From positions 127,311,123 to 127,375,122 of the forward strand of contig JAIOJX010000004.1 in the NCBI GenBank assembly GCA_022376925.1: a stretch of DNA of 64,000 bases, written 5' to 3'. This stretch comes from Tragulus kanchil (Eukaryota; Chordata; Mammalia; Artiodactyla; Tragulidae). Below, one piece after another: positions 1,058 to 63,326 of the stretch (position 1 is the first letter of the stretch; the number at the start of each line of letters is the position of its first letter). Position numbers and translations under genes: made by a program. The notes beneath the pieces were generated by a model. That model had not been told where the DNA came from and did no database searches. It was given only the letters and a program-made list of their open reading frames with translations.

Positions 1058-1759
1058 AATCTGTAGTTGTTAACTAGAAGTCCAGAGGATGTAGCATAAG
1101 CATTTTTGTGTCTTCCCAGGGGCTGTGGAAAACATGTTAAATTTACATCAGTGAAGGTGTATAATTCTGAAGAAGGAGAAAATATGAGGGCCAAAGGGAC
1201 TTCATTTCTATCAAGAGCATTTCTACGATTACGTTTATGTAATTATTGAGCAATACATGGAAGTACTTTCGGGTCAACATTGTACAGAAGTTCCTTGACC
1301 TAAGATGGTTTAATTTAGAATTTCTCAACATGACAATAGTGCAATATGCGTCTAGCAGAAACCAAACTTTGAATTTTGATCTTTCTCCAGGCTAGGGACA
1401 TGTGGTGCTATACTCTCAGGTAATGTTCAGGGCTCCCAGTCAGCTGAGCAATCAGGGTAAACAAGGTAAACACCAGTGCATTTACAACCACTCTGCACCC
1501 CGACAACCATCCTGTTTTTCTTTCAGGACAGTATTCAGTAAAGTACATGAGATATTCAGCACTTGATTATAAAATAGATTTTGCGTTAGATGCTTTAGCC
1601 CAACTGAAGGCTAATCTAAGTGTTCTGAGCACTTTTAAGGGAGGCCAGGCTAAACAAGAATGAGCACTAAGTGAGATGAATTACATGCACTTTCTACTTA
1701 AGGGAGTCTCCATTTATGATGAATTTATTGAGAGGTAACCTTATCACAGGGCCATCATA

Positions 1760-1963
1760 GGACTTCCAGCTGACTCAGCGGCATTGGCAGGAGCTGCAGG
1801 AGACGTGCATTTGACCCCTGGGTAAGGAAGATCCCCTGGAGGAGGAAATGGCAACTCAATTCTAAATCTTTGCCTGGGAAATTCTATGGAGAGAGGAGCC
1901 TGGCGGGCTACACTTCTTAGGATCTCAAAAGAGTCAGACATGACTCAGCAACTAACAACAGCA
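1760..1963 (+). mobile_element. Bov-tA SINE (copy in duplication A1)
   Basis: Shows the Bov-tA layout: tRNA-derived head with 'tttgacccctgggta', then 'ggaagatcccctggagga', 'gagaggagcctggcgggcta' and the 'gactcagcaactaac' end. It is diverged in the head. The duplicate sits at 2830-3033. Confidence 0.85.
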
Positions 1964-2829
1964 ATAATGAACCCTATCATAAATGGAGAAGGATCTGCAC
2001 AAATACATTGATAGATAGATAAACAGGCACACATCCTTTCTGCCTCTACTTTTTGCACATATGGAAAGCCCTGCTTTGCACCTTGCTTTTCCTGAATGGG
2101 TGAAAATTGCTACAGACCAGCTCAACAGGATATACCATCGAATTACATCAAATCACTGGAAGGATGTAGCATAAGCATTTTTGTGTCTTCCCAGGGCTGT
2201 GAAAAGTTAAATTTACATCAGTGAAGGTGTATAATTCTGAAGAAGGAGAAAATATGAGGGCCAAAGGGACTTCATTTCTATCAAGAGCATTTCTACGATT
2301 ACGTTTATGTAATTATTGAGCAATACATGGAAGTACTTTCGGGTCAACATTGTACAGAAGTTCCTTGACCTAAGATGGTTTAATTTAGAATTTCTCAACA
2401 TGACAATAGTGCAATATGCGTCTAGCAGAAACCAAACTTTGAATTTTGATCTTTCTCCAGGCTAGGGACATGTGGTGCTATACTCTCAGGTAATGTTCAG
2501 GGCTCCCAGTCAGCTGAGCAATCAGGGTAAACAAGGTAAACACCAGTGCATTTACAACCACTCTGCACCCCGACAACCATCCTGTTTTTCTTTCAGGACA
2601 GTATTCAGTAAAGTACATGAGATATTCAGCACTTGATTATAAAATAGATTTTGCGTTAGATGCTTTAGCCCAACTGAAGGCTAATCTAAGTGTTCTGAGC
2701 ACTTTTAAGGGAGGCCAGGCTAAACAAGAATGAGCACTAAGTGAGATGAATTACATGCACTTTCTACTTAAGGGAGTCTCCATTTATGATGAATTTATTG
2801 AGAGGTAACCTTATCACAGGGCCATCATA

Positions 2830-3033
2830 GGACTTCCAGCTGACTCAGCGGCATTGGCAGGAGCTGCAGGAGACGTGCATTTGACCCCTGGGTAAGGAAG
2901 ATCCCCTGGAGGAGGAAATGGCAACTCAATTCTAAATCTTTGCCTGGGAAATTCTATGGAGAGAGGAGCCTGGCGGGCTACACTTCTTAGGATCTCAAAA
3001 GAGTCAGACATGACTCAGCAACTAACAACAGCA
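2830..3033 (+). mobile_element. Bov-tA SINE (copy in duplication A2)
   Basis: Same element as 1760-1963, carried by the second copy of duplication A. It is not an independent insertion, because its flanks are identical too. Confidence 0.85.
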
Positions 3034-3081
3034 ATAATGAACCCTATCATAAATGGAGAAGGATCTGCACAAATACATTGA

Positions 3082-3747
3082 TAGATAGATAAACAGGCAC
3101 ACATCCTTTCTGCCTCTACTTTTTGCACATATGGAAAGCCCTGCTTTGCACCTTGCTTTTTTTCCTGAATGGGTGAAAATTGCTACAGACCAGCTCAACA
3201 GGATATACCATCGAATTACATCAAATCACTGGAAAATAAATTTCAAGTAATCTGAGATGAACTGTTTGTTTTACTTAAAATATTTTAAACACAGAGATCT
3301 TCTACAGTAGATCATGAAATACCTTAAGAATAAGCAGAAGCCTGATCCTTATATCATTAAAAGTTTAAAAAGTCCTGCAAACTGAAGTGTTAATAACAGG
3401 AGAAACGATGTAAAATATGTAAGAACACTCTATATTTATCTTCTGAATTCTTTTGTAAATCTAAAATAGTTGTGAAGAAATTAAGGCTATTTTTTTTTAA
3501 AGATTGTGTAAATAATAGGTACTGATATGGGTCAATTGTCAAGAGAAAAAATCAAAATGGGTACTGAAAATATTTAGCTAGAATCACACACAAATCAAGC
3601 AATCAGAATGGCTGCTGATGGTACATCCTGTTGAGCTGGTCTGTAGCAATTTTCACCCATTCAGGAAAAAAAGCAAGGTGCAAAGCAGGGCTTTCCATAT
3701 GTGCAAAAAGTAGAGGCAGAAAGGATGTGTGCCTGTTTATCTATCTA
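3082..3747. repeat. 131 bp inverted repeat with about 400 bp spacer
   Basis: The left arm 3082-3212 and right arm 3617-3747 are reverse complements with a single mismatch that I can see (ggatatacc versus ggatgtacc on the left-arm strand). The arm also occurs in duplication copy A1 (about 2010-2140), but the right arm has the 7-base homopolymer of copy A2, not the 4-base run of A1. The spacer 3213-3616 is AT-rich single-copy sequence with no recognised gene. Confidence 0.9.
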
Positions 3748-4339
3748 CATTTGTATCAATATATACATAGCTTAGAAATATACACTAGGAACTGATGACA
3801 GTGGTTGACTGACCCTAGAGAGGAGCTGAGCAAGCTCACTATGCTATTACTTACAGAAGGTCAATTTTGTGAACAAAAGGGAATATTATAAATAATTATT
3901 CCAGAACAATAAGCATAAACTTGTGCTGTACTGTTAAGTTAGAGCATATGATCCCCCTACAACTGCAGCCTGAGGATTTGAAGGGTCAAGGTTTAGAGTA
4001 GGATTACTTTTCCCTCTATCACAAAACACATTCCTCTTAGCCTCTTTTTACCTTTTTCAAAGTAAAAAGAGTCCTAGAAAATAGAATGAATATTCAATCT
4101 ACAATAAAATCCAAATGGGAGAATATCAAAAAATATATTTTAACCATTTTTGCCTTTCTATCATTATCCTTAAGGAAGAAATCCAACTACTATTGTTAAG
4201 ATTAAGGTTGAATCTGGATACTGAAAATTTTATTTACTAAACATATAAGAGTGATAACAACCCAAACCTCTAAAACTATGTAATCAGTATAAGAGATCAA
4301 TAGTTGTAGAATCTGAGCCATTGGTTTACCAGAAATTGT
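3748..4339. other. Noncoding single-copy stretch
   Basis: AT-rich intergenic or intronic DNA. I see no coding frame, RNA gene or young transposon in it. Confidence 0.6.
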
Positions 4340-5315: not shown

Positions 5316-6457
5316 GCCTCTCCTCTGAACTAAACTGTAGATCTAGAATACAAATTACAAAATATAGAGTGAGTCTAGAATGAAAGATTCTTCCGCTAAG
5401 ACAGACTTTTTCTTCCAGGTGGGGAGCAAATTTTTGTATTGCTATTTCTTTTTGCATTTTGTGTTAAGGTTTGAAGTCTTCTGCATCTGTGATCTCCCGG
5501 GGGGCACAGGGAAGGACCCATCTTCACTTGCTCCCTCTGCCAGTGTGCAAACCGTTTCTGGTTCTGTGGGCTTTCTGCTTGTTACCCCGAGGGATTGCTT
5601 AAGGATTTGAGAAAATCGGGGGCATAAAAAAAATGGTCAAGAGAGGCAAGGTAGAAAACAAGATATTTTCAGCAACTTGGATATAGGGTAATGAATTAAT
5701 GGAGCAAAATCAAGCTGGAAAATGCTGCTTTCACCTGGTTTTCTCTTCCTGTCTAGGCTCCTTAACCCCATCTGGAAAATGCACATGTGCTATAGTTTGG
5801 TACAGAGAGACACTCTCCATGAAGGGACCATTTCATTTAAAAATCATAATTCACGTAATTCAGTTCAGTGTCAGCCTGAACAATTCCCCAAACCTATTAG
5901 AACCCCGAGGGTTCTTTAGAGGCGTCTGTCTGGACTTTGGAGTCCAAGACAGATGTGAATCTGCATCTCTGGCCTTATAGTTCCTGGCTGTGAGCCCTTG
6001 AATATGCTACCTAACATTTCCAATAAGAGTAGCTTCCTTACATCAAGCCCAGGCTGAATGCTAGGGAGGCACTATGCAAACACCCTTCTCTAATGCACAT
6101 GACAATTCTGGCAGTTACTCGCCATTGTGCCCGTTGTATAGATTGTATCACTGAGACCCCATGAATCAAATAGAATTCCAAGCACATTCTCATGCTCTTA
6201 CCATGATGTCCTCCTGCAGTTTCCACCCCAGTCCTCTTTCCTGTGAAATGGAACTAAATAATACCATCCTCCAAAAGAAGGACATGGGTAACATAGATAC
6301 CATGCCTGGCTCAGAATCAAGCACGTATACTTACATCTAAATGGTGGTTCTTATTATTAAGAAAGGAAGTAACCCGAGGGCACGTTGCAGTGCCCGCGGT
6401 GCTACCTGAGTCAAGAAGAGAACGCAGTTCTTTCCAACCGGACGGGATCTGGACTTC
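5316..6457. other. Noncoding stretch upstream of the FYB1 exon
   Basis: Several short open frames occur on both strands, none with a recognisable domain. The block 5925-6040 resembles a weak MIR in plus orientation. It probably belongs to the upstream FYB1 intron or 5' region. I see no convincing first exon. Confidence 0.5.
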
Positions 6458-8667
6458 TGGTATCTGAGAGGGGCCTTGAGAGAAGAAATATGCTCGGGGG
6501 TGTGGCAATGATGGATGAGTGCAGGAACTAAGAAAACATTTCTGAGTGAATTTTTAAAGCACAGAAATGGAAGCGGTCGTGGTTCAAATTTTCTCAAAAG
6601 ACACCAAAGTTCAGTTCCAGGCTTTTCAGGAAAAAAGCAAACCAAGTTTCCATAGGATTATAGTTACAGAGCAAGGAGGCAGGCCACCCTCTTTCCTAGG
6701 GAACATATTGATTCTAGATAAGGGGGACAGAGCCGGTAGCAGACGACAAGACTGGAGAAACCAGCTTCTGGAAACGAGTTTCCAGTCTGTCCCTGCCCCT
6801 TCCTCATCACCTTTCCCATGCCCCAGACTACACCCCTTGAACACAAGGACAGTCTGCCTGCCAGTCTGGTTCCGACTGAATCAGTTACACTAAATATGTA
6901 TCAGTAAGTACAAAAAACCTTATCTTATCGTTTATATATATAAAGAGCCACATCTCCCTGTGGGCAAACTAACGGACCTTAAATATAGATGAGAAGGCTC
7001 GAGACCACAGAGATGTCAAAGGTGGCTATGCTGTAGAAGGCATGCAACCTAAATTTACAGAAGAGCTTGCTTTCATTTTTTAAACTCAGTTTCTGTTTAA
7101 GAGCCTCAGCTATAAAATACAGAAATCTTTTGTTAGTTCCTTTCACACGTTTTTACAGGTTCAACAAAACAGATAAATACCAAATTCAGAGTAAATCTCA
7201 CAAGAGAGCTAGAGAAACAGTGAGGAGAGGAAAGGGGGAAAGAGAAGTTGTGACTTCACAGAAACAAACAAAAAAGCAAGTCAGTCTAAGACGACCAAAA
7301 AAGTCTGTGTATCACAGCCCTCCCCCTTCAAGAAAGTCTCACAACTTATTTTGCCATAGAGGAAGATAAATGTTACAATATCTCGTGAACCAATCAGCGA
7401 CGCTGCAGGCCTCAAACCAGGAAACCTTTAAAGTGTAGTATTTTCAATTGTGCAAGTGAGACTTGAGGCTCTCAGCGAGTGTTTGTTCCTGTGCTTGCAG
7501 GATGGAAAAAGATGTAAAGTCCCTCATGGCGAAGTTTACCACTGGGGCAACCCAGGGACGGCTTTTTGGTATCTGAGAGGGGCCTTGAGAGAAGAAATAT
7601 GCTCGGGGGTGTGGCAATGATGGATGAGTGCAGGAACTAAGAAAACATTTCTGAGTGAATTTTTAAAGCACAGAAATGGAAGCGGTCGTGGTTCAAATTT
7701 TCTCAAAAGACACCAAAGTTCAGTTCCAGGCTTTTCAGGAAAAAAGCAAACCAAGTTTCCATAGGATTATAGTTACAGAGCAAGGAGGCAGGCCACCCTC
7801 TTTCCTAGGGAACATATTGATTCTAGATAAGGGGGACAGAGCCGGTAGCAGACGACAAGACTGGAGAAACCAGCTTCTGGAAACGAGTTTCCAGTCTGTC
7901 CCTGCCCCTTCCTCATCACCTTTCCCATGCCCCAGACTACACCCCTTGAACACAAGGACAGTCTGCCTGCCAGTCTGGTTCCGACTGAATCAGTTACACT
8001 AAATATGTATCAGTAAGTACAAAAAACCTTATCTTATCGTTTATATATATAAAGAGCCACATCTCCCTGTGGGCAAACTAACGGACCTTAAATATAGATG
8101 AGAAGGCTCGCAGACCACAGAGATGTCAAAGGTGGCTATGCTGTAGAAGGCATGCAACCTAAATTTACAGAAGAGCTTGCTTTCATTTTTTAAACTCAGT
8201 TTCTGTTTAAGAGCCTCAGCTATAAAATACAGAAATCTTTTGTTAGTTCCTTTCACACGTTTTTACAGGTTCAACAAAACAGATAAATACCAAATTCAGA
8301 GTAAATCTCACAAGAGAGCTAGAGAAACAGTGAGGAGAGGAAAGGGGGAAAGAGAAGTTGTGACTTCACAGAAACAAACAAAAAAGCAAGTCAGTCTAAG
8401 ACGACCAAAAAAGTCTGTGTATCACAGCCCTCCCCCTTCAAGAAAGTCTCACAACTTATTTTGCCATAGAGGAAGATAAATGTTACAATATCTCGTGAAC
8501 CAATCAGCGACGCTGCAGGCCTCAAACCAGGAAACCTTTAAAGTGTAGTATTTTCAATTGTGCAAGTGAGACTTGAGGCTCTCAGCGAGTGTTTGTTCCC
8601 TGTGCTTGCAGGATGGAAAAGCAGATGTAAAGTCCCTCATGGCGAAGTTTACCACTGGGGGCAACCC
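6458..8667 (+). repeat. Direct tandem duplication B (about 1.1 kb x 2), upstream of and into FYB1 exon
   Basis: Copy 1 is 6458-7553 and copy 2 is 7567-8667, with 13 filler bases at 7554-7566. The last 50 bases of copy 1 hold the start of the FYB1 coding exon with several single-base errors relative to the good exon at 9701. The body is essentially identical (one extra C, 'ctcgag' at 6998 versus 'ctcgcag' at 8108). Frames of 100 and 108 codons repeat in both copies but match no protein I know. Confidence 0.95.
7501..7553 (+). pseudogene. FYB1: Truncated duplicate of the FYB1 exon start
   Basis: The first 53 bases of the FYB1 coding exon, preceded by the same acceptor (AG at 7499-7500), then cut off by the duplication junction. 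Against the intact exon it lacks one C in the pyrimidine tract, has 'aaaaagatg' in place of 'aaaagcagatg' and loses a G in the run near 7543. It cannot encode a functional exon and is probably a low-quality piece end. Confidence 0.85.
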
Positions 8668-9430
8668 CACGGAGGAGGTATCAGTCAACAGCCGGCCCTT
8701 CAAGGTCCCTGGACAGAACTCCTTCGGGAATCCAGGCCAAGAAAAACTTGTTCGACAACCAAGGAAACGCCAGCCCCCCCGCGGCACCTAGCAACGCGCC
8801 TAAGTTTGGGTCCCCCAAGCCGCCTCTGGGCGTGAAGCCTTCTTCTGAGGACAAGCCTGACAAGGAGCCCAAACCTCCGTTTCTAAAGCCGACTGGAGTA
8901 AGTCCCAGGTTTGGACCACAGGCTAACTCTGCCTCCAGGGACCCCGAGGGGAAACCGGGATACCTGAAACCTGTAGGCCCCAAGCCCATCAGCCTGCCCA
9001 AAGAAGAAGCCAAACCTGTGTTTCCCCGGCCTCCTGGGACTAAGCCTTCCTTTTCCAGCGTAAACCAAGACCATGACTTAATGCCACCAGGTCCCAAGCC
9101 AGGGTCAAATCCTTCAGCCCTGGAAAATGAATCAAAACAAGTCTTCCCCAAACTGGCTGGGGCAAAAGGCAAGTTCCTGGCAGCCTCACAAGATCAGGAC
9201 CCCAAGCCCCTCTTATCCAAACCCGTCTTTGGCCAGAAGCCACCCCTGAACACAGAGGACCCCAGGAAGACGAGAGCCCCACTAAGACTGTGGTTCCACA
9301 GCGAGGCCCCAGGCGCCCTGACAGCCAAGGCCAAATCCGCCCCTTGAAGCCAGCCGGGACGAGCCAGAGAGTAAAGGGCACGGAGGGGAGCCATTAGCGT
9401 CTCCTTTGCTGGAGTTCGTTCTGAAACCTG
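8612..9430 (+). pseudogene. FYB1: Frameshifted duplicate of the FYB1 coding exon
   Basis: Begins after the same acceptor (AG at 8610-8611), with start codon at 8639. Relative to the intact exon it has a 2-base loss near 8721 ('aactccttcggg' for 'aactccccttcggg'), so the frame shifts after about 27 codons. More losses of single C or G bases follow near 9262, 9302, 9338 and 9352, and it ends at 9430 in unrelated junction sequence. All visible lesions are in homopolymers, which suggests sequencing or assembly error rather than decay. The 199-codon frame from 8748 is the FYB1 frame re-entered after the shift. Confidence 0.9.
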
Positions 9431-9680
9431 GAAAAAAAGGGGGAAAAAGGTTGTGACTTCACAGAAACAAACAAAAAGCAAGTCAGTCTAAGACGACCAA
9501 AAAGTCTGTATCACAGCCCTCCCCCTTCAAGAAAGTCTCACAACTTATTTTGCCATAGAGGAAGATAAATGTTACAATATCTCGTGAACCAATCAGCGAC
9601 GCTGCAGGCCTCAAACCAGGAAACCTTTAAAGTGTAGTATTTTCAATTGTGCAAGTGAGACTTGAGGCTCTCAGCGAGTG

Positions 9681-9700
9681 TTTGTTCCCTGTGCTTGCAG
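9681..9700 (+). promoter_or_regulatory. FYB1: FYB1 exon splice acceptor
   Basis: A pyrimidine-rich run ends in 'tgcttgcag' and is followed directly by the exon base at 9701. The frame is open from 9701 to the ATG at 9728 (nine codons reading DGKADVKSL), so an upstream exon could extend the protein N-terminally in a splice form. Confidence 0.85.
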
Positions 9701-9727
9701 GATGGAAAAGCAGATGTAAAGTCCCTC

Positions 9728-10859
9728 ATGGCGAAGTTTACCACTGGGGGCAACCCCACGGAGGAGGTCTCAGTCAACAGCCGGCCCTTCAAGGTCCCTG
9801 GACAGAACTCCCCTTCGGGAATCCAGGCCAAGAAAAACTTGTTCGACAACCAAGGAAACGCCAGCCCTCCCGCGGCACCTAGCAACGCGCCTAAGTTTGG
9901 GTCCCCCAAGCCGCCTCTGGGCGTGAAGCCTTCTTCTGAGGACAAGCCTGACAAGGAGCCCAAACCTCCGTTTCTAAAGCCGACTGGAGTAAGTCCCAGG
10001 TTTGGACCACAGGCTAACTCTGCCTCCAGGGACCCCGAGGGGAAACCGGGATACCTGAAACCTGTAGGCCCCAAGCCCATCAGCCTGCCCAAAGAAGAAG
10101 CCAAACCTGTGTTTCCCCGGCCTCCTGGGACTAAGCCTTCCTTTTCCAGCGTAAACCAAGACCATGACTTAATGCCACCAGGTCCCAAGCCAGGGTCAAA
10201 TCCTTCAGCCCTGGAAAATGAATCAAAACAAGTCTTCCCCAAACTGGCTGGGGCAAAAGGCAAGTTCCTGGCAGCCTCACAAGATCAGGACCCCAAGCCC
10301 CTCTTATCCAAACCCGTCTTTGGCCAGAAGCCACCCCTGAACACAGAGGACCCCCAGGAAGACGAGAGCCCCACTAAGACTGTGGTTCCACAGCGAGGCC
10401 CCCCGGGCGCCCTGACAGCCAAGGCCAAATCCGGCCCCTTGAAGCCAGCCCGGGACGAGCCAGAGAGTAAAGGGCACGGAGGGGAGCCATTAGCGTCTCC
10501 TTTTGCTGGAGTCGTTCTGAAACCTGCTGCAAGCAGAGGAACCCCGGGAGGTCTCGCCAGAAATGCTGAAGAGAAGAGAGAAGATAGGAAGGTAGATGCT
10601 GCTAAGAACATCTTCATAAGCAAAGTGAATCAGGAAGAGTCGGCCTCTGGGGCTCCCCCTGCCAAGTTCCCGAAGACCCCTTCGAAGCTGACCATGACAG
10701 GGCCCTGGAGCCAAGGTCAAGAAAAGACGGACAAGAATTCAGCGGCCCCCAAGCAGAAACCCCTGCCTTCCTTGTTTACCCTGGGACCCCCTCCACCAAA
10801 GCCCAGCAGACCGCCCCACGTTGATCTGTCAAAATTTCGAAAAGCCGCTTCTGGAAACA
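9728..10859 (+). CDS. FYB1: FYB1 (ADAP/SLAP-130), large first coding exon, partial protein
   Basis: Encodes the N-terminal 377 residues, plus one base of a split codon, of FYN-binding protein 1, a cytosolic scaffold of T cells and myeloid cells. ADAP binds SKAP1, SLP-76 and FYN and links T-cell receptor signalling to integrin activation. Recognised from the N-terminus MAKFTTGGNPTEEVSVNSRP, the 'GIQAKKNLF' block and the closing proline-rich PPPPKPSRPP (residues 354-363). The exon is low-complexity and rich in K, P and S, with many KPxxP-like motifs, a basic/acidic patch EEKREDRK (281-288) and a single tyrosine at residue 109. No folded domain is expected here: the two helical SH3-like domains, EVH1-binding motif and tyrosine docking sites of the family lie in later exons that are absent from the window. 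The start at 9728 matches the usual family start. It is the only one of three copies with an open frame. Confidence 0.95.
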
Positions 10860-10865
10860 GTGAGT
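10860..10865 (+). promoter_or_regulatory. FYB1: FYB1 exon splice donor
   Basis: The coding similarity stops at ...SGN, followed by A|GTGAGT, a good donor. The codon is split after its first base (phase 1). The frame continues about 70 bases into intron before a stop, which is read-through, not protein. Confidence 0.85.
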
Positions 10866-11254
10866 TCCTTCCTCCTTTGTTATTTCACATGTTTTGTTTC
10901 CCAGCAGAGTGTGTTCTAGCCTCTGGGTAAAAAATTGTAACAAGACATGATTCCATCACAGGTCCTCCGGTGTGTATGATGGCTTTCCCTTGGCATTTTC
11001 TTCCTCAGGTGTGGGAGGTCTGAGAAGATTGAAATCCTGAGTTCCGTGTAGGCTTTCTGTGCAGGAAGTGCCTTGGTGGTGGGAGGGACTGGTTTGGGGA
11101 CTTGGGGAGGAATATATCCATTTGATGGCTAAGTAGTATAACCATTTCATTTACCTCCTTTGTTGGGTTTCCTTTCTGTTGAATAAGACTAAGGCGTGTT
11201 CCCTTTAGTACCACAAAGCAGTTAGAAGGTGAGCAAACCTCCAGGTCAGTGGTG
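10866..11254 (+). other. FYB1: Start of the long FYB1 intron
   Basis: Noncoding. The only curiosity is a 20-base segment 11212-11231 bounded by 'ttccctttag' and 'gtgagc', which has the form of a mini-exon but no coding match. The rest of the window downstream is presumed to be this same intron, because no later FYB1 exon is recognisable. Confidence 0.6.
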
Positions 11255-11410: not shown

Positions 11411-12367
11411 TCACAGATGATTTTAAATGTCCACCAGTTTATCAGATATCTCCTAAGCCCAATATGCAAATAAGAGACACACAGAACTCATGAAATGGCA
11501 CTTGCTGTTTTATATTATAGCTGCTTTCTATTTCTCAGCCAGTATAAAGTTTTCTGAATGATTCTGATTCATAAAGTAGTACATAACTAGGGTAGTAAGC
11601 CAGACAAAGGGATGCCTCATTTTCCTTCTGGGTAAGTGGTTTAATCTTCTATCAGAGAGGTTACTACCATGTATAGCATATGCTAAAAAATTGACCCCAA
11701 ATGGCATGGAAAAGATTTGTTACTCTCTGAGGGATGAAAGAAGCTCACTTATGCTTGACATGATGAATACTTTAGGCAAATAATATGCAATTGTTGTTTA
11801 TCATGAGAAAAGAAAAAGGATGCTTTCAAGTGACCACACCACTACTGGATAGGTTTTTTTCACTTACAAAAGTGTGATCTATCTAAAGCAATTCTGAGTA
11901 TAAAGGTAGTTTCTTTTTTTACTTTGGCTCTGTAGAAGCCTTTGCGATATGTTATTTTCCTGAGATCAATATTCTCTGTTGCCCAACAGATTAGTAATCA
12001 AATGCCCCATTCATTGCTCATGTAGGAAGCAAGTTTGAAATGACTGCATGATCATCTGTCTTCTAGAAAGAGCCAGTCTTTACCACTTGTGTTTTCAAAT
12101 GTCATTTTCTAGGTGTAATACTGGTCCGTAACTCAGAAATGTTACTTTTTCTGAAATCTTCTAAAAGATCCTTTCTTAATTCCCTGTCTTAGTTTTTCTG
12201 TGCCTCAGGTTAAAAAAAATGAGCTATCATAACCTCCATTTTATGACTCTGACTTCATGCCAACGAAACTGTCCTGATGTGATGGAGAAATCCTTGAGAA
12301 GTCTCTTCCATGTCCTCCATCTTTATTTCCACTCCACTATCTGAGTTGAGTGGCAGTCCCCAGATGT

Positions 12368-12410
12368 CTGAAGAGAAGAGAGAAGATAGGAAGACAGATG
12401 CTGCTGAGAA
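12368..12410 (+). other. Exon-like fragment similar to FYB1 exon (intronic)
   Basis: These 43 bases match FYB1 exon positions 10566-10608 at 40 of 43 bases. In the corresponding frame they read SEEKREDRKTDAAEN, against AEEKREDRKVDAAKN in the exon. The local open frame runs from an ATG near 12309 to a stop near 12470, but similarity outside the 43 bases is not evident. A possible acceptor 'gtccccag' lies just upstream (12356-12363); no good donor follows. It may be a relic of a partial exon duplication within the gene. Confidence 0.75.
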
Positions 12411-13491
12411 TGTTGAAATGCCAGGGAAGTCCTCTTTGGGTCCTGTAGTCCCGTATTTCCTATGAAATACAACTCCAAGAGATGCAGGCAAATTGCTTAG
12501 GAGGCCAAGCTGATCCTTAACCTTTTTTCTCCTCCTTTGTCCCCATCCTGATATGTCTTCCCATGACTGAGATGCCCCATGACATAGTTAACATCCTAAA
12601 TTCTCTCATTAATGTGCCCTTGTTGTACCCTCTGGTCCCTCAACATATATTATGCTTCAAGATGGACCCTGTTTTTCCCCCTCATCTGAATTCATAAAGT
12701 AGTACATAACTAGGGTAGTAAGCCAGACAAAGGGATGCCTCATTTTCCTTCTGGGTAAGTGGTTTAATCTTCTATCAGAGAGGTTACTACCATGTATAGC
12801 ATATGCTAAAAAATTGACCCCAAATGGCATGGAAAAGATTTGTTACTCTCTGAGGGATGAAAGAAGCTCACTTATGCTTGACATGATGAATACTTTAGGC
12901 AAATAATATGCAATTGTTGTTTATCATGAGAAAAGAAAAAGGATGCTTTCAAGTGACCACACCACTACTGGATAGGTTTTTTTCACTTACAAAAGTGTGA
13001 TCTATCTAAAGCAATTCTGAGTATAAAGGTAGTTTCTTTTTTTACTTTGGCTCTGTAGAAGCCTTTGCGATATGTTATTTTCCTGAGATCAATATTCTCT
13101 GTTGCCCAACAGATTAGTAATCAAATGCCCCATTCATTGCTCATGTAGGAAGCAAGTTTGAAATGACTGCATGATCATCTGTCTTCTAGAAAGAGCCAGT
13201 CTTTACCACTTGTGTTTTCAAATGTCATTTTCTAGGTGTAATACTGGTCCGTAACTCAGAAATGTTACTTTTTCTGAAATCTTCTAAAAGATCCTTTCTT
13301 AATTCCCTGTCTTAGTTTTTCTGTGCCTCAGGTTAAAAAAAAATGAGCTATCATAACCTCCATTTTATGACTCTGACTTCATGCCAACGAAACTGTCCTG
13401 ATGTGATGGAGAAATCCTTGAGAAGTCTCTTCCATGTCCTCCATCTTTATTTCCACTCCACTATCTGAGTTGAGTGGCAGTCCCCAGATGT

Positions 13492-13534
13492 CTGAAGAGA
13501 AGAGAGAAGATAGGAAGACAGATGCTGCTGAGAA
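13492..13534 (+). other. Second copy of the FYB1 exon-like fragment
   Basis: Identical to 12368-12410 and carried by duplication C. Confidence 0.75.
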
Positions 13535-13917
13535 TGTTGAAATGCCAGGGAAGTCCTCTTTGGGTCCTGTAGTCCCGTATTTCCTATGAAATACAACTCC
13601 AAGAGATGCAGGCAAATTGCTTAGGAGGCCAAGCTGATCCTTAACCTTTTTTCTCCTCCTTTGTCCCCATCCTGATATGTCTTCCCATGACTGAGATGCC
13701 CCATGACATAGTTAACATCCTAAATTCTCTCATTAATGTGCCCTTGTTGTACCCTCTGGTCCCTCAACATATATTATGCTTCAAGATGGACCCTGTTCCC
13801 TCTTGATCCACCTCTTCCGCAAGTCAAAACTCAATCTTCTCTTTTTTTGGTGAAGGGAATTCTGAATATTTAAAAAACTATTTTATATTGGAGTATAGTC
13901 AATTAACAATGTTGTGA

Positions 13918-14095
13918 TAGCTTCAGATGGACAGGAGACCCTGGTTTGATCCCTGGGTTAGAAAGCTCTCCTGGAGAAGGGAATAGCAACCCACTCCAAT
14001 ATTCTTTCCTGGAAGTCCCCGTGGACAGAAGAGCCTGGTGGGCTACAGTCTATGAGGTTTCATAGAGTCAGACACAACTGAGTGACTTTCATTAC
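13918..14095 (+). mobile_element. Bov-tA SINE (D1)
   Basis: Head partly lost. 'tttgatccctgggtta', 'aacccactccaatattcttt', 'agaagagcctggtgggctac' and 'cagacacaactgagtgac' are Bov-tA. The copy in D2 is at 15104-15281. Confidence 0.85.
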
Positions 14096-47430: not shown

Positions 47431-47445
47431 GGCTATTGTGTTAGT

Positions 47446-50100: not shown

Positions 50101-50267
50101 ATCCAAGTTCAGTAGTCAGCCTTATACTCAATTTTTGAACGATTAAATTCTGACAGTTTAATAAAAGCCTAAAAGGTGATTTCCTTTTGGTACTAGGGAT
50201 GATATTTCAGTTGAAATATCTAAAAATATTAACAATTTTAAGTTTCAAAATATGTATGCAGGGACTT

Positions 50268-50412: not shown

Positions 50413-50480
50413 TATAAATATATAGCTATGTGATATGAATACATAGCTATGTGATATAAATATATAGCTAGGCTATATAA
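50413..50480. repeat. Short AT minisatellite 'atagctatgtgatat'
   Basis: Three to four imperfect 20-22 base units containing 'atagctatgtgatat', directly after the SINE. Copied in N2 at about 51524-51591. Confidence 0.75.
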
Positions 50481-51378
50481 TTCATTAATGTTTCATCTAG
50501 GATGAAATAAGGGTATCCTAAAAATTCTTCTGTGATTGCTGTACATATTTTTCCCCCTAATGTACTAACTTTTTGGTCACTAAGTAATTAACTTGCTTGT
50601 ACTTCTGTTTAATGTCATTCTAGTTAGATATCTCTAACTTATAGGCTTTTTTAAGTATGCTTTTTAGTTTCTAAAGTAGCAGTGGACTCTTTCACAAGGT
50701 GTTATTCACAGTCTACGTTATGTGTGCCCCTTTGATGCGGTCCTACAAAAGACTGCATTAGAAGTTTGGTCAAAATGAACACTGTGACACAAGCTGTAGA
50801 CGTCAGAGTTTACCAAGACAACTATAAATAGTACAGTGTTAGTAAAGCATATCATAAGAAATCAAACTGGGGGATTTTAGATGGATGTAGCTTCTTATGT
50901 CTCCCAGTTCCTCAAAATGGTTTTTTTCGTTAATGTGGAAAGTCCAAACCTTCTACCACATCAGTAGTGCCCACATTAGCTGGCTTGAGTTTCACTATTT
51001 CTTTAAAGGAGAAGAAAGCAAAATCAGTGTTTCTTAAAGCATGGTCCGTAGTCTACATGCATCAGAACTCCCTGAGAGTCTAGGCAAGAATGCAGATCCC
51101 TGAGTCCCATCTGAGAGCATCTGAGTCAGACTCTTTAAGGATGGGCTCCTAGAACCAGTTTATTAAATATGCACCCAACTTATTCTTAAATTTTGAAAAT
51201 GACTGCTATAGATCCAAGTTCAGTAGTCAGCCTTATACTCAATTTTTGAACGATTAAATTCTGACAGTTTAATAAAAGCCTAAAAGGTGATTTCCTTTTG
51301 GTACTAGGGATGATATTTCAGTTGAAATATCTAAAAATATTAACAATTTTAAGTTTCAAAATATGTATGCAGGGACTT

Positions 51379-51523
51379 CTCTGGTGGTCCAGTGGCTAAG
51401 ACTTCATGTTTCTGGTGCTGGGGTTCTAGATTCAGTCCCTGGTAGGGGAACTAAATCCCACATCTTGAAACCCAAATAAAGAGACTCTGCATTCCATAAC
51501 TAAGACCCAGCACAGTCAGGTCT
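51379..51523 (+). mobile_element. CHR-2-like SINE (N2)
   Basis: Second copy of 50268-50412. Confidence 0.8.
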
Positions 51524-52026
51524 TATAAATATATAGCTATGTGATATGAATACATAGCTATGTGATATAAATATATAGCTAGGCTATATAATTCATTAAT
51601 GTTTCATCTAGGATGAAATAAGGGTATCCTAAAAATTCTTCTGTGATTGCTGTACATATTTTTCCCCCTAATGTACTAACTTTTTGGTCACTAAGTAATT
51701 AACTTGCTTGTACTTCTGTTTAATGTCATTCTAGTTAGATATCTCTAACTTATAGGCTTTTTTAAGTATGCTTTTTAGTTTCTAAAGTAGCAGTGGACTC
51801 TTTCACAAGGTGTTATTCACAGTCTACGTTATGTGTGCCCCTTTGATGCGGTCCTACAAAAGACTGCATTAGAAGTTTGGTCAAAATGAACACTGTGACA
51901 CAAGCTGTAGACGTCAGAGTTTACCAAGACAACTATAAATAGTACAGTGTTAGTAAAGCATATCATAAGAAATCAAACTGGGGGATTTTAGATGGATGTA
52001 GCTTCTTATGTCTCCCAGTTCCTCAA

Positions 52027-52567
52027 GATAATTTTAGATTGGTGTCCATTATATATTAGACAAAAAATATTTCATTTGTGAATTCCTGGCACATGTGGAA
52101 AGAGCAAAATGGGGTCTTACTAAGTCCCTTATCCTTACTTCCCCAGTTTCATCATGCTAAACCTCCAATATCACTAACTCCTTTGGTTACAAAATCTGTA
52201 TTTAGCAAGTCATATAATCTGCATCTAATATCGCTGTTTCACATATGACTTCTTGCTAGGCTACCAGCACCATCCTGCTTCATTGTCCACAAGTTATATA
52301 ACCAATGATTAACTACTATATATATCATTGTATAGATATATAGGCCCACTACAGCCAAGTGAGTAACAATGATTACTCAGTCAATGGACTAGAGCAACAC
52401 TTATGTGCAAGATCAAGGGGATCTGACTGCAAGTCTGATTAACTCCAAAGTAAATGGTTTTAACTAGGACTCTACATTGGCTGGATTCTTCTCGTTCCTG
52501 GCTGAAATTCATACTGAAAGGTATGAATTTTGACCATTCCAATTCTTTTAAAATATATATGTGTGTG
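52027..52567. other. Noncoding intron stretch
   Basis: AT-rich, no recognised repeat or gene. Confidence 0.55.
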
Positions 52568-54660: not shown

Positions 54661-55326
54661 GGCCTGACTCTCTTATTACCAAAGATTTACCTTCTTTCAA
54701 TCAATCAGTAATTTAAAGCTTAATCATATTTAAGCCCAGTGAATTTTTCTACTGGATAACTTCTTATTCCAGCTACAAGTATGATGTTAAATGGTATTCT
54801 TTATACTAATTATATTGCTTATGGGTATATTTGACCATCACTCTTTCTGTTCAGTGCCCTGTAGCATTCAATTTCACTGCTACATGCTGAAAATGATGAT
54901 GATCCTTAGTATGAGTATTAGTGATAAACATGAATTATACAATATATTCTTTATTATTGTGTTTAATCTTTTTGTTCTAACAGCAAGATGCAAGAGAATT
55001 TGACATTTCCTAATTTTTCCAGCAGATCATTTATTTACTCATATATCTATTGAACAAATATTTAGTGAGTGACTATCATAGGTTTATGCCTGGGAATATA
55101 GCAATAAGAATGATATACATAGTTTTTGCTTTCATATAACCTACATCCTAGTTGGAAAAGATAATATACAAGTAAGTGGATAAATTCATAGACTACTTAG
55201 TGTCATGAATAAAATAAAACCAATGATGCAATCAAGTGACTGAGGAGGTAGCAGGCTAAGTAAACCGATTTTAGATGGTATCATTATGAAGACCTCTCTG
55301 AGAAGATAAAATTTAAGCAGAGTCAT
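54661..55326. other. Noncoding intron stretch with an old repeat at its end
   Basis: AT-rich. From about 55050 it resembles an old mammalian dispersed repeat ('atttagtgagtgactatcat', 'atgcctgggaatatagcaat') that continues across duplication O. The name cannot be settled. Confidence 0.4.
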
Positions 55327-55420
55327 GAATGATGAAAGGATGCAACTCTACAGTGTTATGGGAGAGGAATATCTGAGTAGAAAGGGGTCAGTGCAAATCC
55401 TTAGGCAAGAATTAGCATGG

Positions 55421-55734
55421 GGCTTCCCCTGGTGGTCCCGTGGGTAAGGACACCGCCTTGCAGTGCAAGGGGCTCCAGTTCGATCCCTGGCCTGGGAAGA
55501 TCCCACATGCCGCGGAGCGGCTGGACTGATGTGTCCAATTACCGAGCCTGTGCACCCAGAGCCGGCGCTCTGCGACAACAGAGGCCACCATGATGGGAGG
55601 CCCACAGGAGCCAAAGAACAAAGACGGATGAAAATAGAGAAATGAAAGACCAACAGAAGTGGCCCGCCCATCCCCCTCCCTCCCCACCCCACCCCCCAAA
55701 AGATAAATAAATAAAATTTTAAAAAAAGAAAAAA
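55421..55734 (+). mobile_element. GC-rich CHR-type SINE (O1) with target-site duplication
   Basis: 'ggcttcccctggtggtcccg', 'gttcgatccctggcctggga', 'tgtgtccaattaccgagcct', a C-rich run and an A-rich tail. Target-site duplication agaattagcatg at about 55409-55420 and 55735-55746. Confidence 0.9.
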
Positions 55735-56469
55735 AGAATTAGCATGATGTGGTTAAAAAAACAGTAAGCCCTTAAGGGGTTACTAGTTAGCCGAATACCT
55801 AAGTGAAGTGGGGATTGGTTGAAGGTGAGACTGGAACAGTAGGCACTGGCCAAATTCTATGGGTCTTAGAAGGCCATAGTTCAGAATTTGTAATAGGAAG
55901 CCACTGACATTGAAGCCATGATGAAGAGTATCCTATCTGGTTTACATTTTGGGACTTCTTTTTGATTGCTGGGTGAAGCATAAAATGTAGGTGCGTAAGA
56001 ATGAATCTGAAGACTGATTATACTTTTAGGTGAGAAATGATGTGGCTTGGACTAGGGTAGAAGGGGGACAAGAAGATGAATTTAGAATATGTTTCATTGG
56101 TAGCGTTGATAGGAATTGTTCACATACTGGGTGTAGGGAGTAAGAAAATACAAAACAGGAATTGATATGAATGGTTGTTAAATATTATATTGATTACATT
56201 AATTTCAGCAATTTGCTATTCTATTTGGACTTCATACAAGATTTATATGCACAATGTAAATGTGACTATATTATTTACTTTGCATAAAATAGTGAAGAGA
56301 TGTATGAATTATATTTAGAAACAGTAAAACTTGGTATTGTTTGACCAATTAGAACCATTAAGCAAAAGTCAAATTTGAATGATGAAAGGATGCAACTCTA
56401 CAGTGTTATGGGAGAGGAATATCTGAGTAGAAAGGGGTCAGTGCAAATCCTTAGGCAAGAATTAGCATG

Positions 56470-56784
56470 GGGCTTCCCCTGGTGGTCCCGTGGGTAAGGA
56501 CACCGCCTTGCAGTGCAAGGGGCTCCAGTTCGATCCCTGGCCTGGGAAGATCCCACATGCCGCGGAGCGGCTGGACTGATGTGTCCAATTACCGAGCCTG
56601 TGCACCCAGAGCCGGCGCTCTGCGACAACAGAGGCCACCATGATGGGAGGCCCACAGGAGCCAAAGAACAAAGACGGATGAAAATAGAGAAATGAAAGAC
56701 CAACAGAAGTGGCCCTCCCATTCCCCTCCCTCCACACCCCACCCCCCAAAAAGATAAATAAATAAATCTTAAAAAAAAAAAAAA
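56470..56784 (+). mobile_element. GC-rich CHR-type SINE (O2)
   Basis: Second copy of 55421-55734. The C-rich run ('ctcccattcccctccctcca') and the tail end ('aaaatcacagcatg') differ, so the right-hand target duplication is broken here while the left one is intact. Confidence 0.9.
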
Positions 56785-57605
56785 TCACAGCATGATGTGG
56801 TTAAAAAAACAGTAAGCCCTTAAGGGGTTACTAGTTAGCCGAATACCTAAGTGAAGTGGGGATTGGTTGAAGGTGAGACTGGAACAGTAGGCACTGGCCA
56901 AATTCTATGGGTCTTAGAAGGCCATAGTTCAGAATTTGTAATAGGAAGCCACTGACATTGAAGCCATGATGAAGAGTATCCTATCTGGTTTACATTTTGG
57001 GACTTCTTTTTGATTGCTGGGTGAAGCATAAAATGTAGGTGCGTAAGAATGAATCTGAAGACTGATTATACTTTTAGGTGAGAAATGATGTGGCTTGGAC
57101 TAGGGTAGAAGGGGGACAAGAAGATGAATTTAGAATATGTTTCATTGGTAGCGTTGATAGGAATTGTTCACATACTGGGTGTAGGGAGTAAGAAAATACA
57201 AAACAGGAATTGATATGAATGGTTGTTAAATATTATATTGATTACATTAATTTCAGCAATTTGCTATTCTATTTGGACTTCATACAAGATTTATATGCAC
57301 AATGTAAATGTGACTATATTATTTACTTTGCATAAAATAGTGAAGAGATGTATGAATTATATTTAGAAACAGTAAAACTTGGTATTGTTTGACCAATTAG
57401 AACCATTAAGCAAAGCATATAGATGAGATAAATGAGGTGGAGAAATCTTTATTTGTAATTCTTAAACCTGACTAAGCTGTGAACTGACAAGGTAGTATAT
57501 TTCAATATGAGCTCTTCAGACATTCTCAGAGTCCCTTAGTTCTTCTATACACATTTTTAAATTATATTATCATTTTAGTGAAAATCTAAAAAGAAATCAA
57601 TGTAA

Positions 57606-57752
57606 GCATGAAAGTGTTAGTCGCTTAGTTGTGTCTAACTGTGTGATCCTGTGGACTGTGGCTCTGTCTATGGGATTGTCCAGGCAAGAAAACTGGAGTG
57701 GGTTGTCATTCCCTTCCCAAACCAGGGCTCAAACCTGGTCTTCATACATTAA
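57606..57752 (-). mobile_element. BovA-family SINE, minus strand (P1)
   Basis: 'gcatgaaagtgttagtcgct', 'gggattgtccaggcaagaaa' and 'ctggagtgggttgtcattcc'; the tRNA head is truncated after 'ctcaaacctggtctt'. Duplicate at 58697-58843. Confidence 0.82.
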
Positions 57753-58129
57753 AGTTATTTTTTATTAAAAGGCAACTTCATTCGCCCCAGGCTAATAAAA
57801 AATACAAGTGAAAGCCAAAGAATGTCACAGTGAAAATTAAAACAAAAGCTTCACAGTAACTGAAAAAATAATGTAGTAGGAAAATTGGGTTATAACACAA
57901 GACATAATACTATAACAATACTAAACTCTAAAGAAATATTGTTCATTAGAGCACTTTAATTCAAAATAGACAGTGAATACGGGTTAAAAATTTTAAATGG
58001 ATTTACCTAATGATTAAACACATGCTACTAATTGCAAAGGTTTATTACCACAATAAGAAAATTATACAAATACAGCTAACTAGCTGAAATTGCCCTTCAC
58101 TAAGGAATTTGTAATGAGGGAAGGAAACA

Positions 58130-58258
58130 GAAGTTCATGGATCACCTACTGTGAGCTAGGCGAGTAGGCGAGGCACTTGTGACAGACACGTTTGTTAATT
58201 ATCATCATTATCCTAACACTGCGACAGATGAAACTGAGGCTCAAAAAAGTTAAGTGAT
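58130..58258 (-). mobile_element. MIR SINE fossil (P1)
   Basis: 'gatcacctactgtgagctag', 'gaggcacttgtgacagacac' and 'atgaaactgaggctcaaaaa' match a reverse-complement MIR. Duplicate at about 59221-59349. Confidence 0.7.
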
Positions 58259-58696
58259 GATGTTGATCCAGTTGAAAAAGATTTAAAATGTCCAGTGGTA
58301 TATAAGATATGAGAAGACAAGGCTTCAGGGAGTCTATATTGGTAAAGCTCCACTGAAGAACAATTTGACAGAAACCATGTGGGATTTAAGTGTTCAAATC
58401 CTTCATCTTAGTAATTGTACTTTATCACCTCATCTAGAAAACTACTGCCATATATATACGGAGAAGCATGTAGGTGTCTGTTCACTGTTGCTCTATTAGT
58501 AGAAAATGTGTAAAGACTAAAGAAACCATGCCATATCCTGGTCACAAAGCACTCTGCCACAGTAATTCTTAAACCTGACTAAGCTTATAATTTCAATATG
58601 AGCTCTTCAGACATTCTCAGAGTCCCTTAGTTCTTCTATACACATTTTTAAATTATATTATCATTTTAGTGAAAATCTAAAAAGAAATCAATGTAA

Positions 58697-58843
58697 GCAT
58701 GAAAGTGTTAGTCGCTTAGTTGTGTCTAACTGTGTGATCCTGTGGACTGTGGCTCTGTCTATGGGATTGTCCAGGCAAGAAAACTGGAGTGGGTTGTCAT
58801 TCCCTTCCCAAACCAGGGCTCAAACCTGGTCTTCATACATTAA
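58697..58843 (-). mobile_element. BovA-family SINE, minus strand (P2)
   Basis: Second copy of 57606-57752. Confidence 0.82.
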
Positions 58844-59674
58844 AGTTATTTTTTATTAAAAGGCAACTTCATTCGCCCCAGGCTAATAAAAAATACAAGT
58901 GAAAGCCAAAGAATGTCACAGTGAAAATTAAAACAAAAGCTTCACAGTAACTGAAAAAATAATGTAGTAGGAAAATTGGGTTATAACACAAGACATAATA
59001 CTATAACAATACTAAACTCTAAAGAAATATTGTTCATTAGAGCACTTTAATTCAAAATAGACAGTGAATACGGGTTAAAAATTTTAAATGGATTTACCTA
59101 ATGATTAAACACATGCTACTAATTGCAAAGGTTTATTACCACAATAAGAAAATTATACAAATACAGCTAACTAGCTGAAATTGCCCTTCACTAAGGAATT
59201 TGTAATGAGGGAAGGAAACAGAAGTTCATGGATCACCTACTGTGAGCTAGGCGAGTAGGCGAGGCACTTGTGACAGACACGTTTGTTAATTATCATCATT
59301 ATCCTAACACTGCGACAGATGAAACTGAGGCTCAAAAAAGTTAAGTGATGATGTTGATCCAGTTGAAAAAGATTTAAAATGTCCAGTGGTATATAAGATA
59401 TGAGAAGACAAGGCTTCAGGGAGTCTATATTGGTAAAGCTCCACTGAAGAACAATTTGACAGAAACCATGTGGGATTTAAGTGTTCAAATCCTTCATCTT
59501 AGTAATTGTACTTTATCACCTCATCTAGAAAACTACTGCCATATATATACGGAGAAGCATGTAGGTGTCTGTTCACTGTTGCTCTATTAGTAGAAAATGT
59601 GTAAAGACTAAAGAAACCATGCCATATCCTGGTCACAAAGCACTCTGCCACAATGACGAGGAATGAGCTAGTTC

Positions 59675-60195: not shown

Positions 60196-61072
60196 ATTGC
60201 ACCTCCTGTTTAAGCCAGTCTGGCTACACAGCTGCGCTTCCACTGGTTCTTTGTCACTTCATGCTCTGTCCAAGCAAGTTCTGCTTTCTCTGCTGGCAGT
60301 TCTGGTCCTCTTCGCTTCATGTCTACTTGGTCTGATGCTCTAATGGACCCCTTTGAAAAGCTTACAATTTTAGCAGGGAAAAATCTGACTTCCTGGATGA
60401 GTCTATGATCAGGGAATTTCCCTTAATAAACCTTTTTTATGGTGCTTCCTTTTACTTAAAAAAAAAAAAAGGACATCTGTCACAAAGTAATTTAATGTGC
60501 TTTGTTTGGAGGACAGAGTTTGTGGGCGTAGGAGGAGGTGTATGTTTGATGTGTTTGTTTTGTTTATTTTGTTGCCAACAATCAAGAATTGGCAGATTTC
60601 ACAGTAGGTTGAAGTCCATCAAGACTGGGTGTGAATTTCCTCCTCACGAGTCAATTCCCAGCACTACCTAACAAAAATGCATGTTGCTGCCTGGCCTCCA
60701 CTGAACGTTGAGTGTGAAGCATCCGCTCTAGTTGTCCGTCTGTTTTCTCATAGTCTGAAGCTATGTCTCAGCATCATCAATGTTTACTCTTTTTCTGCTC
60801 ATAGATGTTATTTTTCTGGTCATATTGATTTATATTTTAAAAGCATTGATTTACTCAAAACCTTCATTATTCCTTCAACATACCAATCCATTCATATGAG
60901 GATTTTCCAAATCTTGAGTTCTAGTAGGACTTCTTTTACTCCTATATAAATTTAAATTTTTAAACAAATTTGGCATTTGAAGAAAAGAAATTAAATTATT
61001 GTCCCCTGCCCCAATATTCTCTTCTCTTAGAACAGGAAAGGCACTCTGTAAGCTATCAGGATCTGACAAAAA
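60196..61072. other. Noncoding intron stretch
   Basis: An A-run at 60459-60470. Adjacent frames at 60405-60671 and 60677-60949 have no recognised domain. Confidence 0.5.
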
Positions 61073-61124
61073 TTTTTCCTATATATTGAGTCTTTTCCTT
61101 TTTATGTAATTATCTTTTATTTTC

Positions 61125-61235
61125 CTTTTGGTTACACTGCACTGTTCGCGAGATCTCGGCTGCCTGACGAGGGATCAAACCCGGGGCATAGCATAGAAAG
61201 CACCAAGTCTTAATTGCTACACCACCAGGAAAGTC
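61125..61235 (-). mobile_element. CHR-type SINE, minus strand (Q1)
   Basis: 'gatctcggctgcctgacgag', 'ggatcaaacccggggcatag' and 'acaccaccaggaaagtccc'. Duplicate at about 62251-62361. Confidence 0.75.
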
Positions 61236-61248
61236 CCTTAACCTTTTT

Positions 61249-61548
61249 AAAAAAAAAAAAAAAAAACTTCATTTTGCTTTTAACTTTTACAGAGTTTTGT
61301 TGTTTACAGATATGCATGTTCCCAGATTAGTCATATGTATGTCCCCCCCTTCCCACCCCTCTCAACCATCACACAGCACCCCTGAAGGATCCCCTTTTCT
61401 CACAGAGCAATGACTGTAGCTATTTTCTTCACTTATGATAGTACAGGCCTTCATGCTACTTCCTTTATGCCTCCCTCCCTCTGTTCCTTCCTCACAATGT
61501 CCATATGTCCACTGTCCATGTCTGTCTTTCTGTCGCTTCACTGTGTGT
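61249..61548 (-). mobile_element. 5'-truncated L1-like 3' end with target-site duplication (Q1)
   Basis: A long A-run opens it, although a minus-strand LINE tail should read as T. It is the reverse complement of the element at 29513-29919 ('gttttgttgtttacagatat', 'aggatccccttttctcacag'). Flanked by ccttaaccttttt at 61236-61248 and 61549-61561. Duplicate at about 62375-62675. The 90-codon frame is read-through. Confidence 0.75.
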
Positions 61549-62250
61549 CCTTAACCTTTTTAAAAAGGGAAAAATTCAGAAGTCAGCAATCTGTAGTCAA
61601 ATTGCTGCCTGATTTGCATTTCATGTTATTTTATGAATTGAAAAAAAATAAAAACATTTATAAAAAGGCACTCCATGAGTAGACCTAATTATAAAAATGA
61701 CTATGTAGACTGTGAATAGCCAAGAAACTTATTGGGGGAATGAACTTTTAAGAATTGAAAAGAAATTCAGAGACATTGAATGTTAAAGTTAGATCTGAGA
61801 TGGGGGAGTTTATGATAGTGATCAAAAGCCTTTCTTATTTTCCTCTAGTTGATTGTATTTGTCTTGATCTCTACTTCTTCACCTTCAATTTAATTTCTGC
61901 TTAATTATCTATGCAAATATGAACGTTTCAGTATTACTTTTCTTTCCATATTGATGGAATATTCTAAACTGGCTGACATTTTCTTGGTAGCTTTCTTTCA
62001 AAGCAAAGATTTTTCACTAATACAGTTAGTCACAGTACTTTGTTTTCAGCTAAATTGGTTTTCAAATTTTCCCATCCTCTGTGGGCTTACATTCACTATG
62101 GGTGTATAAATTCTTTGAAGACAAGAATAGATGACTTTGAATTAGGCAAGAAAAAAAATTCTGTAAAACTAGATTTTGAAGTTTATGACTCAGAGATATT
62201 TTTCCTATATATTGAGTCTTTTCCTTTTTATGTAATTATCTTTTATTTTC

Positions 62251-62361
62251 CTTTTGGTTACACTGCACTGTTCGCGAGATCTCGGCTGCCTGACGAGGGA
62301 TCAAACCCGGGGCATAGCATAGAAAGCACCAAGTCTTAATTGCTACACCACCAGGAAAGTC
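62251..62361 (-). mobile_element. CHR-type SINE, minus strand (Q2)
   Basis: Second copy of 61125-61235. Confidence 0.75.
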
Positions 62362-62374
62362 CCTTAACCTTTTT

Positions 62375-62675
62375 TAAAAAAAAAAAAAAAAAACTTCATT
62401 TTGCTTTTAACTTTTACAGAGTTTTGTTGTTTACAGATATGCATGTTCCCAGATTAGTCATATGTATGTCCCCCCCTTCCCACCCCTCTCAACCATCACA
62501 CAGCACCCCTGAAGGATCCCCTTTTCTCACAGAGCAATGACTGTAGCTATTTTCTTCACTTATGATAGTACAGGCCTTCATGCTACTTCCTTTATGCCTC
62601 CCTCCCTCTGTTCCTTCCTCACAATGTCCATATGTCCACTGTCCATGTCTGTCTTTCTGTCGCTTCACTGTGTGT
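62375..62675 (-). mobile_element. L1-like 3' end (Q2)
   Basis: Second copy of 61249-61548. The flanking duplication is at 62362-62374 and about 62676-62688. Confidence 0.75.
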
Positions 62676-63326
62676 CCTTAACCTTTTTTAAAAGGAAAGA
62701 TTCAGAAGTCAGCAATCTGTAGTCAAATTGCTGCCTGATTTGCATTTCATGTTATTTTATGAATTGAAAAAAAATAAAAACATTTATAAAAAGGCACTCC
62801 ATGAGTAGACCTAATTATAAAAATGACTATGTAGACTGTGAATAGCCAAGAAACTTATTGGGGGAATGAACTTTTAAGAATTGAAAAGAAATTCAGAGAC
62901 ATTGAATGTTAAAGTTAGATCTGAGATGGGGGAGTTTATGATAGTGATCAAAAGCCTTTCTTATTTTCCTCTAGTTGATTGTATTTGTCTTGATCTCTAC
63001 TTCTTCACCTTCAATTTAATTTCTGCTTAATTATCTATGCAAATATGAACGTTTCAGTATTACTTTTCTTTCCATATTGATGGAATATTCTAAACTGGCT
63101 GACATTTTCTTGGTAGCTTTCTTTCAAAGCAAAGATTTTTCACTAATACAGTTAGTCACAGTACTTTGTTTTCAGCTAAATTGGTTTTCAAATTTTCCCA
63201 TCCTCTGTGGGCTTACATTCACTATGGGTGTATAAATTCTTTGAAGACAAGAATAGATGACTTTGAATTAGGCAAGAAAAAAAATTCTGTAAAACTAGAT
63301 TTTTGAAGTTTATGACTCAGAGATAT

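Follow-up and report, generated by a model that had tools for sequence, protein, structure and literature searches.

Dense 1.1-kb tandem duplications in the Tragulus kanchil genome assembly are almost certainly unmerged overlaps between assembly pieces

Why should eighteen different sequences in a single stretch of mammalian DNA each be present twice, head to tail, at nearly the same length? The question is raised by 64 kb of the Tragulus kanchil assembly around the gene FYB1 (G000:C3:127311123-127375122; hereafter the window, meaning the whole stretch that was analysed). An earlier note, made from the letters of this stretch, had described the duplications and had proposed that neighbouring assembly pieces overlapping by about 1.1 kb were joined without being merged. 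The results given here are based on the assembled sequence, chiefly on the 64-kb window and 17 places sampled outside it. They make us highly confident that the 1.1-kb duplications are false and arose when overlapping pieces were laid end to end unmerged, whatever program did so. The duplications are present in the sequence file but almost certainly not in the animal.

Eighteen adjacent pairs in the window

Self-comparison of the window on the same strand (matches >400 bp, identity >=85%) recovered all eighteen stretches described in the earlier note as adjacent direct pairs between 1086 and 63326. The offset between the copies was 1,045-1,224 bp, with a mean of 1,115, a standard deviation of 42 and a coefficient of variation of 3.8%, which agrees with the near-constant length of about 1.10 kb first reported, and 19.9 kb of the window consists of second copies (19.8 kb in the first estimate). 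The two copies were 97.6-100% identical, i.e. they differed by 0-2.4%. A chance origin is not an issue for matches of about a kilobase with 97-100% identity at one offset. Two words of the original description need qualification. The stretches had been called unrelated, and the eighteen pairs do exist, but they are not all independent, because 5 of the 17 sets of neighbours share 319-437 bp, the second copy of one pair running into the first copy of the following pair, so that parts of the sequence are triplicate. A further 437-bp self-match at offset 2,310 is the by-product of two such neighbours. The copies had also been called adjacent, and they abut only approximately: among 45 full pairs (the 18 of the window and 27 in 16 sampled 10-kb loci), they overlapped by up to 12 bp or were parted by up to 64 bp of filler. 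The window has no N and thus no gap between copies, unlike the gap trait of false duplications. The distances from join to join in the window were irregular, from 1.8 to 7.0 kb.

The positions below are those of the window, no strand is assigned to the pairs, and the offset in bp follows each pair in brackets. The series begins with pair 1 at 1086-2161 and 2161-3234 (1075) and pair 2 at 6455-7553 and 7564-8667 (1109). Pair 3, which holds most of the large coding exon of FYB1, lies at 8341-9430 and 9436-10526 (1095). It is followed by pair 4 at 11563-12673 and 12685-13797 (1122) and by pair 5 at 13361-14529 and 14547-15715 (1186), whose copies are 100% identical. Pair 6, at 19572-20599 and 20648-21676 (1076), has a 48-bp filler at its join, and beyond it come pair 7 at 21358-22454 and 22457-23551 (1099), pair 8 at 24953-26170 and 26177-27392 (1224) and pair 9 at 29899-31003 and 30999-32104 (1100). 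The second copy of pair 10, at 32553-33665 and 33662-34753 (1109), is 21 bases shorter near its start, and pair 11, at 34386-35517 and 35555-36693 (1169), contains a 37-bp filler that resembles its upstream flank. Pair 12 occupies 38190-39294 and 39294-40400 (1104), pair 13 occupies 45249-46340 and 46339-47430 (1090), pair 14 occupies 47063-48181 and 48185-49299 (1122), and pair 15 occupies 49832-50924 and 50943-52035 (1111). The last three are pair 16 at 55313-56366 and 56358-57414 (1045), pair 17 at 57455-58561 and 58562-59652 (1107), in which the second copy is 16 bases shorter near its start, and pair 18 at 61072-62199 and 62198-63326 (1126). In pair 16 a cluster of differences lies at mid-copy, at 55666-55740 and 56716-56790, in low-complexity sequence, whereas the differences of the other pairs are mostly bound to the edges; this cluster could stem from haplotypes or from a simple repeat that was poorly resolved.

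Recurrence, spacing and differences between copies

The whole assembly has 3,167,203,957 bases in 32 contigs; 15 of the 20 contigs of known size are longer than 100 Mb and total 3,077 Mb, so that the remaining 17 contigs hold about 90 Mb between them (the diploid number of Tragulus is 2n = 32). Outside the window, sixteen 10-kb stretches and a single 20-kb one were sampled, 180 kb altogether, and the same duplications were found at 16 of the 17 places, with at least 40 events, or about one per 4.5 kb. These counts are lower bounds, as the clustering yields 17 events for the 18 of the window and 2 for the 3 of sample L021, and the masked bases in five samples (L009, L010, L011, L013 and L024) can only hide events. 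Second copies made up 22.2% of the sampled bases; if this fraction holds genome-wide, the assembly without them would shrink from 3.17 Gb to about 2.46 Gb. The 45 full pairs had a mean offset of 1,115 (standard deviation 42, range 1,045-1,242). Among 69 same-strand self-matches in the window and samples (>=95% identity, >150 bp), 61 lay at an offset of 1,000-1,300, the other 8 lay at 2,158-2,310, where two events meet, and none was found at any further offset. A genome search with one duplicated stretch also matched a dispersed repeat, probably a short interspersed nuclear element, and 10 pairs of those matches were 1,065-1,128 bp apart.

The spacing of events was measured with second copies collapsed and between full pairs only, so that a truncated or masked pair lying between two others can be missed. 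The smallest of the 29 spacings was 676 bp and eight fell at 676-807 bp, and both values together were matched by 1 in 50,000 random placements. Such a floor is expected if units of about 1.1 kb follow one another with overlaps no larger than about 0.3-0.4 kb. Spacings as multiples of a 220-300 bp unit gave no signal, either in the 29 spacings or in shorter subsets; in the window alone the best period was 230 bp, a value without a null test.

The differences between the copies are informative about how the pairs arose. Over the 45 full pairs there were 211 differences, and 124 of them lay within 100 bp of a copy end, where 38 were expected (binomial P about 2e-39). The point at which an alignment stops could account for some of the crowding in the outermost 25 bp, although 58 of these 124 differences are located more internally. 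Within these 100 bp, the second copy had fewer bases than the first on the left side (49 vs 125), and the first copy had fewer than the second on the right side (25 vs 71). Thus, the loss of bases falls on both sides in the copy next to the join, and this copy is the poorer one on balance. The load of differences was therefore not independent of the distance from the junction, as it should be in a real tandem duplication. Crowding at the edges together with base loss next to the join is the difference in consensus quality that marks false duplications of the homotype class, discussed below.

Where neighbouring pairs overlap, the third copy shows which one is wrong, because two copies outvote one. 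Eight of nine three-copy regions were aligned (overlaps of 231-440 bp; the ninth, in L010, lies between incomplete pairs and was left out), and 67 of their 2,782 columns had an odd one out, a count of columns in which a multi-base gap counts several times. The odd copy was the left piece in 19 columns, none of them farther than 68 bp from its end, and the right piece in 48, none farther than 78 bp from its start; it was never the middle piece. One of the eight regions lacked odd columns, and L016 alone supplied 21 of the 67. All 67 odd columns thus sit in end pieces, as expected where haplotype-specific variants are lacking; some of the 87 differences that lie away from the copy ends in the pairs could nonetheless be haplotypic. 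Finally, the filler at the joins was long enough for comparison (>=12 bp) in 12 cases, of which 8 resembled the sequence before the first copy, 1 resembled the sequence after the second and 3 resembled neither (z >2 against shuffled filler, not corrected for multiple tests). Because errors are crowded at the ends and directional, the middle piece is never odd and most fillers resemble a flank, a join is most likely a meeting of two consensus pieces with poorly supported ends; a genuine duplication would not be expected to show such features.

Origin of the duplications

That the duplications are false is argued by their constant length, by their genome-wide recurrence, by the lattice of overlapping units and by the errors at the piece ends. 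The reading offered in the earlier note was supported by the recurrence at the other places, by the crowding of copy differences at the joining ends, by the three-copy regions and by protein-coding exons that occur twice, again about 1.1 kb apart. In class, these are most probably homotype false duplications in an unusually dense and fixed-length form. Excerpts of two studies describe this class as "overlapping sequences at contig boundaries" (PMC8081667, PMC9516828). The likeness lies in a single locus being printed twice, in copies that differ by consensus quality and in possible false exon gains. The cases described in those excerpts lie near contig boundaries, are often about as long as a read and have gaps between the copies, whereas in the present assembly the copies are not parted by gaps, the unit is constant at about 1.1 kb and the sampled places have an event every 4.5 kb or so. 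In the excerpt of PMC9516828, gaps are a primary trait of false duplications generally and do not define the homotype class. No description of tandem false duplications of about 1 kb from wtdbg assemblies was found in the titles and abstract openings that were searched, from which we do not claim that they are unreported.

We propose that the assembly was made of consensus pieces whose terminal 1.0-1.1 kb or so recurred at the start of the following piece. Many of these overlaps would have gone unrecognised and the pieces would have been concatenated, which would print the shared stretch twice; where a piece was only about 1.85 kb long and both of its joins failed, a shared stretch would be printed three times. 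The merge may have failed because of the poor base quality of the piece ends, and the pieces themselves may be the edge consensuses of a graph with vertices of about 1 kb. In wtdbg2 (Redbean), one consensus is made per graph edge, from vertex to vertex, so that a whole vertex is common to neighbouring edges and is printed twice if it is not stitched. Neighbouring units overlap slightly in that program, which resembles the events seen here, and as vertices may overlap by one 256-bp bin, a spacing floor near 768 bp would be expected. The observed floor is 676 bp, and five of the eight shortest spacings (676-749) are below 768. In the excerpts seen of two papers, the fuzzy Bruijn graph of wtdbg2 is built by segmenting reads into 1,024-bp units that are merged as vertices (PMC10989838, PMC7730629), and the likeness to our data is a unit of about 1 kb common to neighbouring pieces. 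From the closeness of the unit length to 1,024 bp we regard wtdbg or wtdbg2 as the probable assembler.

The observations that weigh against this account should be set out together. The mean unit of 1,115 bp is 9% above 1,024 bp, although the range of the 45 pairs is plausible with fuzzy ends. The spacings showed no 256-bp quantisation: the best period varied with the cut from 254 to 264 bp (P 0.47-0.85 compared with random spacing, at low power), so that the bin structure of wtdbg is unconfirmed. Moreover, 87 of the 211 differences are found in the interior of the copies, over 100 bp from either end, and these may be microsatellites, haplotypes or consensus errors. Four of the 12 fillers are unlike the upstream flank, one of them being like the downstream flank. 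No event was found at L023 (G000:C9:1000001-1010000), which lies on the 1.5-Mb contig C9 and not on one of the contigs of chromosome size, where all the places sampled had events; as this is a single stretch, its lack of events may be due to chance.

Another step of the pipeline in which overlaps of about 1 kb are used, such as chunked polishing, gap filling or a different assembler, could also have left its overlaps unmerged. This possibility, which shares its core with the account above, would give a similar length and similar errors at the edges, and the absent 256-bp quantisation is in its favour. The spacing floor of about 0.7 kb and a minimum piece length of about 1.85 kb, however, suit slightly overlapping vertices of about 1 kb, and we hold such a step to be the less likely source, though a real one to reckon with. 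Chunked polishing in particular would produce regular joins, and the scatter of join distances in the window rules against it. A heterotype false duplication, in which the two parental haplotypes are placed in succession, deserves mention since the divergence of the window pairs is within reach of heterozygosity and since, in 5 of the 6 assemblies tabulated in PMC9516828, the heterotype class is the larger one. Haplotypes, though, impose no length of 1,115 with a standard deviation of 42, the differences are concentrated at the ends and directional, and some pairs are 100% identical. The main ground on which we consider it very improbable is that the middle piece is never odd in the eight three-copy regions.

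It is also conceivable that the genome itself copies about 1.1 kb of any sequence in tandem, roughly every 4.5 kb. The sequence itself, taken at face value, says so, and tandem duplications of a preferred length, about 10 kb, are known from repair-deficient tumours. This tandem duplicator phenotype likewise consists of many duplications of unrelated sequences, but it is somatic, its units are far longer than those described here and there are far fewer of them per genome, and it offers no reason for errors to crowd at the copy ends. At the sampled density, an event every 4.5 kb or less, such a process would have duplicated roughly one fifth of a mammalian genome very recently, and the main coding exon of FYB1 would have been doubled with its first copy frameshifted. 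The copy differences follow the joins, and a real process would have to put most of them at the copy ends. We therefore regard genuine copying as exceedingly improbable and retain unmerged assembly overlaps as the explanation.

FYB1 exons and consequences for users of the assembly

The large exon at 9698-10903 belongs to FYB1, for which 244 homologues were found, and this search together with a protein tree of the exon upheld the earlier assignment of the locus to FYB1 and of the host to the ruminants. The downstream copy of the exon is open (9698..10903, + strand) and gave a single match to residues 1-403 of reindeer FYB1 (P0005), the last 14 or so residues of which are probably translation past the splice donor. 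The upstream copy (8612..9432, + strand) gave four matches in three frames when the same protein was searched by tblastn, with frame shifts near 8715-8722, 9263-9287 and 9340-9355; in a further comparison it gave two matches, each with internal stops. At about 10862-10927 the open frame extends beyond the homology to FYB1, and its short tail, which probably lies beyond a splice donor, has a similar counterpart in single-exon database proteins (P0001, P0011). A weak match to FYB1 residues 4-18 at 7505-7549 is a fragment of a third copy.

Further along the gene, FYB1 blocks 475-519, 514-570 (only 514-542 in the other copy) and 570-618 were doubled at 1,157, 1,109 and 1,110 bp, so that four of the eight blocks found, the large exon included, are doubled wholly or in part. 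These three blocks lie downstream of the window, at G000:C3:127406901-127416670, which indicates that the artefact reaches along the FYB1 gene. None of the 120 homologues listed, of the 244 found, had the FYB1 exon block twice at >=60% identity. In the tree of 15 rows, the window exon grouped with sheep, goat, reindeer and muntjac (98/98), and these four formed a clade of their own without it (100/99). With no chevrotain among the rows, this would probably place the window exon just outside Pecora, the position of the Tragulidae.

The duplications are thus not a biological feature of the animal but a warning for users of the assembly. With second copies accounting for about one fifth of the sampled sequence and with exons doubled, gene models, repeat counts, copy-number calls and genome size derived from this assembly are likely to be wrong. 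The frameshifted upstream exon of FYB1, for example, could be reported by an annotation as a pseudogene or as a false gain of an exon. Self-matches that share an offset of about 1.1 kb, combined with errors that fall mostly at the edges next to the joins, provide an easy test that can be applied to other assemblies.

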